NCBI GenBank assembly: GCA_030145525.1
Contig: JAQYVL010000047.1
Location: 1-32,847, forward strand
DNA: 32,847 nt
DNA from: Desulfobacterales bacterium
Lineage (GTDB): Bacteria > Desulfobacterota > Desulfobacteria > Desulfobacterales > SURF-7
Direction of reading: 5' to 3'
The notes beneath the pieces were generated by a model. That model did not search any database and was not told the origin of the DNA. It worked only from the letters and a program-made list of their open reading frames with translations. The position numbers were made by a program, and so were the translations under genes. Positions 16,390 through 18,770 of this stretch are shown here, piece after piece (position 1 is the first letter of the stretch; each line of letters starts with the position of its first letter).

Positions 16390-16458
16390 AAGCTTAGTGT
16401 TATGGGGTTTGCGTCCTGCGTCCTTAGTAAATTTTGCAGGGGATTAGATTTGATGAAC

Positions 16459-16627
16459 TCGTAAAAAGTCGCAAAACAGACAGCAAAGTAAAAAGTTCAA
16501 GTTCGAGGCGCACAAATCTTGTATAATACCGTGCACAACAGTGCAGCGGTAGCCGAAGGCGTGCATAGTTAGCCTATTACGCAATTATACAAGATGAAGC
16601 GCAACAAAGAAATTGGACTTTTTACGA
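16459..16627. repeat. Dispersed inverted-repeat element, copy 1
   Basis: Perfect 12-bp terminal inverted repeats TCGTAAAAAGTC/GACTTTTTACGA; shares arms and a central TAGTTAGCCTA core with copy 2 at 18408-18544. Confidence 0.85.
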
Positions 16628-16904
16628 AGCTGTCAGATTTACTGCGCTGAAATATTGCCCATCATCTATTATTCAAAAAAAGCCGGATGTCAATAATCTG
16701 TGCCGGCAAGGCCTGTCTTTCAGGATTTGCATTCCAAAAAGTGTCCCTCCATTAATGGATGGGCACTAAAAAGGCTTCTCCGACGAAGTACCTCAATGCT
16801 TTTTCTTATAACATATTTATTTTCTTGACACAATCGCTAAAAAAACGTATTTGATAGGACGTTTTTCAGGGAAAAAAACAATTTACAAAGGAGAACATAC
16901 CGCT

Positions 16905-17186
16905 ATGGCAATTACAAAGGCTGATATCATAAATTCTATACAGGATCAGATCGGATTCCCCAAAAATCAATCATCCGAAATCGTTGAAACCCTGTTAGAG
17001 CTCATAAAGAAAGACCTTGAATCCGGAAACGATGTTCTAATATCAGGATTTGGAAAATTCTGTGTCAGGGAAAAAAAGGAAAGAAAAGGCCGCAATCCTT
17101 CAACCGGGGAAGATATGATGCTTGCACCGCGAAAGGTTGTTACCTTTCGATGCTCAAGTATTTTGTGTAATAGAGTAAACGAATAA
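16905..17186 (+). CDS. ihfA: HU/IHF family DNA-binding protein, probable IHF alpha subunit
   Basis: MAITKADIINSIQDQIGFPKNQSSEIVETLLELIKKDLESGNDVLISGFGKFCVREKKERKGRNPSTGEDMMLAPRKVVTFR. RBS AAAGGAG precedes ATG 16905. Confidence 0.85.
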   Translation: MAITKADIINSIQDQIGFPKNQSSEIVETLLELIKKDLESGNDVLISGFGKFCVREKKERKGRNPSTGEDMMLAPRKVVTFRCSSILCNRVNE

Positions 17187-17203
17187 ACATAGATGAAACA
17201 AAA

Positions 17204-17232
17204 AAAGCCTCCTCCATATATGGGGAGGCTTT
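17204..17232 (+). terminator. Rho-independent-type terminator after IHF gene
   Basis: AAAGCCTCC (17204-17212) and GGAGGCTTT (17224-17232) around the loop TCCATATATGG. Confidence 0.7.
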
Positions 17233-17270
17233 CAAAATTTTCGGAACATACACGAAAACAAGGAGGAGAT

Positions 17271-17408
17271 GTGTCCAAACAACATCCTGAATGTCCCCTG
17301 TATGCTCACACCAACTGTAAGGAGCTGGATAATCAGAAGGTTTGCGCGATTGTGCGGAAAGATAAAACCTGCCTGAAAAAAAAGAACAAAAGCAAACGGC
17401 AAAAGTGA
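17271..17408 (+). CDS. Small Cys-rich protein (45 aa), unknown function
   Basis: RBS AAGGAGGAGAT precedes GTG 17271: MSKQHPECPLYAHTNCKELDNQKVCAIVRKDKTCLKKKNKSKRQK, with four Cys. Confidence 0.6.
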   Translation: MSKQHPECPLYAHTNCKELDNQKVCAIVRKDKTCLKKKNKSKRQK

Positions 17409-17461
17409 TCCGCCGTTCAAAAAGCAACACCTTCTGCTCTGAAACAGAATATTCGAATTCC

Positions 17462-17860
17462 CTATACGCTCTGCAAAATCTTTTTTACAATATTCCCGTC
17501 TGCTGAAGATCCGAAGTGACTCATGATGGGCCTCATGGCCTGCATTCTGTTGTTGAACTGTGTAAAATTGACATTCTGCTGAATCCATACCCGGATTTCA
17601 TCTTCTGATGCCATGCTAGGCAGATATTTTTCAAGGGTTGTGATGAATCCTGAATCGGCTGTTTCTCCTTTTGCGTCAAGCATCTCTTTCTCAGCCTTAA
17701 TCAGCTTTTTAAGAACACTGATAACATCATCATCAGCCAGTTCCTTTTTATCAAGCCTTCCGAACTCCCCCATTACAACTCGAATAGCCGACTTCTTTTC
17801 CTCATCCCTCTCCTTCATCGCAGAGATCAAATCTTTTTTAATCAGCTCCTGAAGTCTCAT
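17462..17860 (-). CDS. GatB/YqeY domain-containing protein
   Basis: MRLQELIKKDLISAMKERDEEKKSAIRVVMGEFGRLDKKELADDDVISVLKKLIK...ITTLEKYLP...ADGNIVKKILQ is the YqeY-like pattern. Confidence 0.9.
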   Translation of the reverse strand: MRLQELIKKDLISAMKERDEEKKSAIRVVMGEFGRLDKKELADDDVISVLKKLIKAEKEMLDAKGETADSGFITTLEKYLPSMASEDEIRVWIQQNVNFTQFNNRMQAMRPIMSHFGSSADGNIVKKILQSV

Positions 17861-17940
17861 GGCGACACCTCCATGCTCCTCTTTGTTTGTACTCGCATAC
17901 TATATATTATATGGTGATTCTCAGAATCACCTTCTGGGCA

Positions 17941-18399
17941 CTATTGTTTCTCTAAGCTATCACCCGCTTCCATCTGGTCCTGGAAAAGTGTGGATTCAAA
18001 TCCGAACAGCTTCTCATACTCCTCTTTGCTGCCGGAGCCCATTCCTAAAAATCCGATTTTGACAAGTGCGAATGGATAGCTTGGGATATAGATGTTTGCA
18101 GCCCCATTAATCTCGGGATCATCGCTGTACTCTATCTCAATGGGAGGAAGAATTAAAGGAGCCACCGGGGTCGCTGCCGTATCCGCAACAATCAATACCG
18201 CATCTGTTACAAGTCCGAAAGGCAGTGCAAGCGGTTTTAAAGCCCAATGTGAATGTTTCGTAAATTCAATTGTCGCATACCGGTAGTAGCCAAGCGTGTA
18301 ATGCCTTACAGGGCCATGGGAGCAGCCGCACAAATATGCAGTTACTGCAAACAGAATCGCAATAACACTGTTCTTTGCTGCTTTTCCTGAAACACTCAT
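17941..18399 (-). CDS. YceK/YidQ-like lipoprotein
   Basis: MSVSGKAAKNSVIAILFAVTAYLCGCSHGP signal with Cys; ALPFGLVTDAVLIVADTAATPVAP resembles the YceK-type family. The ORF track extends to 18435, but that extension lies in the repeat element. Confidence 0.6.
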   Translation of the reverse strand: MSVSGKAAKNSVIAILFAVTAYLCGCSHGPVRHYTLGYYRYATIEFTKHSHWALKPLALPFGLVTDAVLIVADTAATPVAPLILPPIEIEYSDDPEINGAANIYIPSYPFALVKIGFLGMGSGSKEEYEKLFGFESTLFQDQMEAGDSLEKQ

Positions 18400-18407
18400 T
18401 GTCAATC

Positions 18408-18544
18408 TCGTAAAAAGTAAAAATTCTGATGGCAAAGAAAAAAGTTCAAGTTCAAGGCGCGCAAATCCCGAGGAATGAGGCGTAGTTAGCCTACTCCGCA
18501 GTGACGAGGGATGAAGCGCAACACAGAAATTGGACTTTTTACGA
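18408..18544. repeat. Dispersed inverted-repeat element, copy 2
   Basis: 11-bp TIRs TCGTAAAAAGT/ACTTTTTACGA; shares AAAAAGTTCAAGTTC(A)AGGCGC.CAAATC and GATGAAGCGCAACA.AGAAATTGGACTTTTTACGA with copy 1. Confidence 0.85.
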
Positions 18545-18770
18545 AGCCATCACTCATTGGCCTGCCTCTTTCTATACATTTTCGTCCAATAGTAATATCA
18601 GGATGTAAAAAATGAAAGCCTTATTTTATCATGGAAAGTATAAGGTCGAAAATGGATCTCTGGCCGAAGGACATTTTAAAGCCACATCAAAAATGAAAAC
18701 ATGGTTACCATTCGAGGGAGAGATGGTAAGAATTCGGGGGGCACAGGAGCTTAAACTTTTTACAAAACCA

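Follow-up and report, generated by a model that had tools for sequence, protein, structure and literature searches.

What are the two similar inverted repeats in the window (the whole stretch of DNA analysed, 32,847 nucleotides from a Desulfobacterales bacterium), and is their folded form under selection? Both were found to be copies of one element, each situated between divergently read ORFs. The explanation offered here, which as a whole we consider very probable, is that the element is a MITE widespread in its phylum, that it shares its ends and target-site duplication (TSD) with IS1182-like insertion sequences (ISs), and, with less certainty, that its fold has been kept on the plus strand, perhaps as RNA.

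Extent and parts of the two copies

The element ends in GAYRGYYTCGTAAAAAGTC...GACTTTTTACGAAGCCRTC. A sequence-only reading had described the two copies with their terminal inverted repeats (TIRs), arms and central hairpins, and these parts were all recovered; its coordinates were inner ones, and each true end lies another 7 bp outwards. The features are as follows.

16446-16451, no strand: TSD AGATTT left of copy 1, identical to 16635-16640
16452-16634, plus: copy 1, of the long subtype (183 bp), whose core carries an additional hairpin module (CM R1 match, 119.6 bits)
16452-16470, plus: outer (terminal) left inverted repeat GATGAACTCGTAAAAAGTC of copy 1, adjoined by the TSD
16479-16495, plus: second, internal occurrence of the end repeat in copy 1, partner of the right end (sequence; inner/right covariation)
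16516-16527, plus: 5' arm of the copy 1 core stem, ATCTTGTATAAT (sequence, fold)
16565-16577, plus: apical hairpin of copy 1, ATAG-TTAGC-CTAT (sequence, fold)
16584-16595, plus: 3' arm of the copy 1 core stem, ATTATACAAGAT (sequence, fold)
16616-16634, minus: right TIR of copy 1 (sequence)
16635-16640, no strand: TSD AGATTT right of copy 1 (sequence)
18394-18401, no strand: direct repeat ACTCATTG left of copy 2, identical to 18552-18559, with a 1-base overlap with the degenerate left terminus
18401-18551, plus: copy 2, the 151-bp standard form (CM R1 match, 181.5 bits)
18401-18419, plus: outer left inverted repeat of copy 2 (sequence)
18428-18444, plus: inner end-repeat copy of copy 2, which pairs with the right end (covariation)
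18465-18474, plus: 5' side of the copy 2 core stem, ATCCC then GA-G-GA (5' half, two tandem G.A mismatches)
18479-18497, plus: apical hairpin of copy 2, GGCGTAG-TTAGC-CTACTCC
18503-18512, plus: 3' side of the copy 2 core stem, GA-C-GA then GGGAT
18533-18551, minus: right TIR of copy 2
18552-18559, no strand: direct repeat ACTCATTG right of copy 2

Because the direct repeat ACTCATTG overlaps the element by one base, the left terminus of copy 2 looks shifted by about that much. Both lengths recur in the genome, with 20 copies of 183 bp and 40 of 151 bp. A search of Rfam gave no match over either copy up to an E value of 1.

Copy number, target sites and range

At least 100 exact right ends, TTGGACTTTTTACGA, were identified in the 3.17-Mb draft genome (91% complete), while the reversed-pattern control gave none. 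BLAST returned 209-250 candidates. The 198 end-pattern matches overcount the elements, some left ends having been accepted with one mismatch, and only the lower bound of 100 copies is used here.

Based on 105 distinct copies in this genome, a perfect 6-bp direct repeat was present directly outside GAY...RTC in 47, and 11 more had 5/6 identity; random re-pairing of the flanks gave chance levels of 1.2% for perfect repeats and 6% at 5/6. The consensus target was AANNTT. Targets deviating from it, such as AAAACA and GAACTT, were also duplicated on both sides, from which it follows that the duplication is truly 6 bp and no artefact of preferred ends. Six-bp TSDs together with inverted ends are hallmarks of a DDE transposon. 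Only 2 of 76 copies overlapped an ORF, and the insertions are therefore mostly intergenic, as judged with a crude ORF caller. The element is thus a MITE: it is short (151-183 bp), has no coding capacity, carries complementary ends and a 6-bp TSD, and is present in at least 100 intergenic copies. An autonomous partner with the same ends, also expected of a MITE, was found in other genomes of the phylum (loci L265, L349 and L350). An empty orthologous site was sought via a neighbouring gene, and no close relative was found; the one named relative of that gene was from Desulfopila.

With the same crude ORF calling, positions between tandem genes were co-oriented in 51 cases and opposite in 32 (30:20 in the own genome, 21:12 in relatives), a weak orientation bias relative to genes. 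The hypothesis that the element is a terminator was rejected, since gaps between convergent genes were not enriched (7/73). At L017 (about 1360-1445) a solo end repeat overlaps the T-run of a terminator-like hairpin, and on this sequence the ends of the family could double as terminator tails.

A 45-bp copy at L101 (about 960-1004) consists of the two end repeats alone and has a perfect 6-bp duplication, ATGCTT. The core may be dispensable for transposition; an internal deletion after insertion would give the same appearance, which leaves dispensability as a possibility. Elements directly beside another element or end, with a 6-bp duplication in common, were observed at L041 (about 1640-1665), L265 (417-2454) and L318 (1083-1250), suggesting a possible preference for insertion beside existing copies.

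The 151-bp copy 2 was matched in 65 of 146 relatives, belonging to 51 of 107 genera. A covariance model built from 32 copies (alignment A2) extended the MITE to 152 of 395 genomes and 101 of 246 genera of the phylum, which we take to be Desulfobacterota. Many of these matches were full length, with E values below 1e-24 and visible TSDs, and the best ones were nearly constant in length (151-154 bp); some weaker matches to the model might belong to different hairpin families. Collections of plasmids, phages and viral contigs contained no copies, and in 390 genomes of the order MITE ends flanking non-MITE sequence were solo or decayed ends only. Among the long subtypes, L024, L026, L069, L075 and L090 have the left arm swapped for a CCCCGCTTTTAGCGGG... 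hairpin module, and L067, L080 and L086 carry a core module on the opposite arm; these sequences suggest modular exchange inside the element.

The closest known MITEs are ERIC and Correia (NEMIS), which are 100-200 bp, intergenic, palindromic and high in copy number (PMC2229807, PMC10969869), and whose transcripts form long stem-loops that are RNase-processed (PMC10969869, PMC2229807). The present element resembles them in size, intergenic site, palindrome, copy number and the long stem-loop that a transcript would form. They are listed with TA termini and for enterobacteria or Neisseria, whereas this MITE has AANNTT 6-bp TSDs, different ends, a phylum-wide range and an internal end-repeat copy paired with the right end. 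It does not belong to ERIC, from which it is set apart by termini and TSD rather than by consensus alignment: its ends are GAY...RTC with an AANNTT TSD, and there was no match in plasmids of other bacteria. The Chunjie MITE of Geobacter uraniireducens, compared by description alone, is similar in coming from a related bacterial group and in its variable internal length; it is 235 bp long.

The fold, its duplicated end repeat and its strand

On the left side the end repeat occurs twice, spaced 27 bp. A TSD (at least 5/6 identity) abuts the outer copy in 81 of 141 copies and the inner one in 5 of 141. At position 3, the inner repeat and the right end form Watson-Crick pairs in 52 of 55 copies (29 T-A and 23 C-G, p=3e-13), while the outer, terminal repeat is mostly mismatched to the right end. 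The 5' arm of the fold is the internal copy of the end repeat, and the TSD lies beside the other, terminal copy.

Compared with 200 dinucleotide shuffles, the RNA folds of copies 1 and 2 had z values of -7.6 and -4.7. The sequence-only reading had argued from compensatory changes that the folded form is under selection. The two copies in the window are by themselves insufficient to prove this, and the covariation was taken from larger alignments, which bear the argument out. For A2, aligned by sequence alone, RNAalifold gave a fold of 39 pairs, 16 of them with double changes. Alignment A3 comprised 57 copies drawn from about 56 genomes, nearly all of which contributed a single copy; it showed changes on both sides in 25 of 39 pairs, against 10.9 pairs in shuffles and at most 10 in slid controls, in which the partner was moved by 1-3 columns. 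Cells with double changes numbered 157, against 40±7 when shuffled and at most 25 when slid. A3 was fitted to the covariance model, so that its counts lean to structure; the alignment is nearly gap-free, and A2 gave the same covariation picture. Further copies without central pairing had been named as evidence that would speak against the fold, and A3 did not bear this out: 97.6% of the cells in A3 were paired, versus 34-49% in slid controls. The fold is real, and its paired bases change together.

In the core stem, GA faces GA in two mismatch doublets with a single G-C pair between them. The doublets are conserved in 46 and 44 of the 57 copies, and several of the exceptions have Watson-Crick pairs instead. 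In RNA, and in certain DNA hairpins, tandem G.A pairs are known to be stable. The doublets, together with the use of an internal repeat as stem partner, argue against a fold made up simply of two transposon ends.

As a strand test, an initial G.T to A.C count of 38:9 was discarded, as the fold had been chosen on the plus strand and the count was biased. When the test was kept to pairs common to independent plus- and minus-strand folds, the ratio in A3 was 22:5, with p=0.0015 when cells are counted and 0.013 when pairs are counted; in A2 it was 14:6, which is not significant. The GA doublets would read as T.C mismatches on the minus strand, which, with the excess of G.T, favours the plus strand; it is moderately supported as the folding strand.

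The likely helper and the role of the fold

The sequence-only reading had remarked that no transposase is nearby, which holds for the window; the whole draft genome likewise yielded no transposase that matches. In high-copy genomes, about 110 DDE transposase loci were screened for MITE ends on both sides. Such ends surrounded the transposase at L265, L318 and L344, all three encoding proteins of one type, with 51-54% identity to the first one, and a profile search of the 395 genomes gave further loci. Perfect 6-bp TSDs flanked the IS at L265 (AACCTT), L349 (AACAAT) and L350 (AATCTT), and the TSD at L358 matched at 5/6. The IS at L344 had both ends and no matching TSD. In L318/L348 the left end lies 124 bp before the ORF and the right end 10 bp after it; the TSD does not match, and the left end adjoins a MITE, AATCTT being common to both. 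One or both MITE-type ends were present at L351, L352, L357 and L360. More distant homologues (31-35% identity) were without MITE ends, and GACGGGGCGGTAAAAAGT was present at either end of a relative carried by a Microvirga plasmid.

The helper IS contains a single ORF of about 577-590 aa, which fills nearly all the space between the ends. Its protein matched the IS1182 model NF033551 with E values of 3e-46 to 4e-45 (155-158 bits), below the curated cut-off of 270, indicating a related, divergent group. DUF772 and DDE_Tnp_1_6 (PF05598, PF13751) were over the Pfam cut-offs in all three proteins tested. As judged from these sequences, the helper is likely a divergent IS1182-like IS. A helper IS with matching TIRs or a REP/TnpA system had been suggested earlier; an IS with the same ends was found, and the REP/TnpA alternative was abandoned, the ends being IS1182-like. 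At L265 the IS lies directly beside a MITE whose ends are the same as its own, with AACCTT between the two and on either flank. This MITE (2316-2448) differs from the one in the window and carries a GTCATTCCCGCGAAAGCGGGAATCCAG palindrome, from which it follows that several MITE families share these ends.

No helper was detected in the own, 91%-complete genome by searches with PF01609, ISNCY_2 and the helper profile. Of 23 genomes with a helper match, 11 also carry the MITE, versus 38% overall, and there is no clear association. This fits helpers that come and go while MITEs remain, without lending that history support. The IS1182 family resembles the present system in the model match, the DUF772/DDE_Tnp_1_6 domains and the single ORF, and its member IS1272 is also reported to have forms with a tandemly duplicated left end. 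It differs in that the helper scores below the family cut-off, the target is AANNTT with a 6-bp TSD rather than a replaced stem-loop, and the MITE codes for nothing.

Mobilisation in trans by an IS1182-like transposase is probable from the common ends. The transposase would bind the GAY...TCGTAAAAAGTC ends common to IS and MITE, then cut the element and paste it into AT-rich AANNTT sites between genes; in the own genome the helper would have been lost, or would lie in unassembled sequence. With less certainty, the fold would be maintained on the plus strand and would form an RNA hairpin on co-transcription with neighbouring genes, making insertions tolerable or lending an RNA function; alternatively, the folded strand would aid the transposase.

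The leading reading, to which we give roughly an even chance, is that the folded core acts as an RNA hairpin within host transcripts; it would then be comparable to ERIC and Correia elements. More tentatively, the hairpin of inner repeat and right end, with its two tandem G.A motifs, might be a dedicated module of a phylum-wide mobile structured RNA (or single-stranded DNA), selected either because an IS1182-like transposase recognises it or because it controls many host genes per genome at the post-transcriptional level.

The main rival to the RNA reading, held as less likely, gives the fold a part in transposition: inner repeat and right end would form a single-stranded hairpin, or a cruciform, which the IS1182-like transposase would read, or which would mark the element as a preferred target. 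IS1272 is reported to replace stem-loop targets, and some of its forms to have a tandem duplication of the 25-bp left end (PMC5678879), comparable to the left end duplicated here at 27 bp; the adjacent elements with a common duplication at L041, L265 and L318 also agree with such a role. However, the insertions have canonical 6-bp TSDs at AANNTT with no replacement of stem-loops, the core-less 45-bp copy has a perfect TSD, and in the stretches read the helper ISs have no internal hairpin like that of the MITE.

A neutral palindrome is unlikely; one arm would then be copied onto the other, by template switching or intra-strand repair, and the fold itself would not be selected. Arm-copying repair is known for inverted repeats, and the long subtypes gain and swap whole hairpin modules. 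Such copying should, however, erase mismatches, yet the GA/GA doublets have been kept across many genera; moreover, changes in the stems go pair by pair with G.U intermediates, G.T exceeds A.C at those pairs that the folds of both strands share, and the terminal repeat has not been homogenised with the right end.

A little more doubtful still is that the element is an independent gene for a non-coding RNA, driven from a promoter of its own, acting in trans and spread by transposition. The strong covariation, the tandem GA motif and the near-constant length across the phylum would suit such a gene, but neither copy matched Rfam, and at least 100 divergent copies per genome would be unusual for a trans-acting RNA gene. 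A REP/BIME moved by a RAYT (Y1) transposase, or by a system of the IS200/IS605 type, is likewise a repeated intergenic hairpin of high copy number, and GTAG occurs in the hairpin stem of own-genome copies, but it can practically be dismissed: REPs have no TIRs or TSDs and a different transposase chemistry, whereas this MITE has true TIRs and 6-bp TSDs, its tetranucleotide is GTAC in most genera and is paired rather than an unpaired tag, and its partner with the same ends encodes a DDE transposase.

MITEs, including MITEs with foldable transcripts, are already known. In the open literature searched, no MITE was found that combines a phylum-wide range, quantified covariation, a stem built with a second, internal end repeat and a helper of the IS1182-like type; a catalogue entry elsewhere is possible. 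Bacterial MITEs have mostly been described from a single species or family, with folds usually argued on energy alone. Here one family keeps its length and fold across a phylum. It shows strong covariation and a mismatch motif that is conserved, and its likely helper can be named. The old question of whether MITE hairpins act as RNA, as a transposition substrate or as neither becomes testable, and the covariance model would allow a large unannotated repeat fraction of these genomes to be annotated.

A 2.36-kb unit at L221 with the same TIR, the TSD ATCTTT and an IS4-like ORF was considered as a helper and rejected by comparing copies: the ORF is that of another IS, which has ends of its own (CGCAGAGATTTTAA...) and has inserted within a MITE copy. 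This IS4-like IS was observed at L221 (914-3273, genome G604), L224, L227, L232, L235 and L237; it sits in GGAATCC-type palindromic repeats, and in two genomes it interrupts a MITE copy that has the same ends as the two in the window. Elsewhere in the window, a 71-bp direct repeat (512-582 and 1457-1527, 76% identical) is located at the 5' ends of two apparently paralogous genes on the minus strand.
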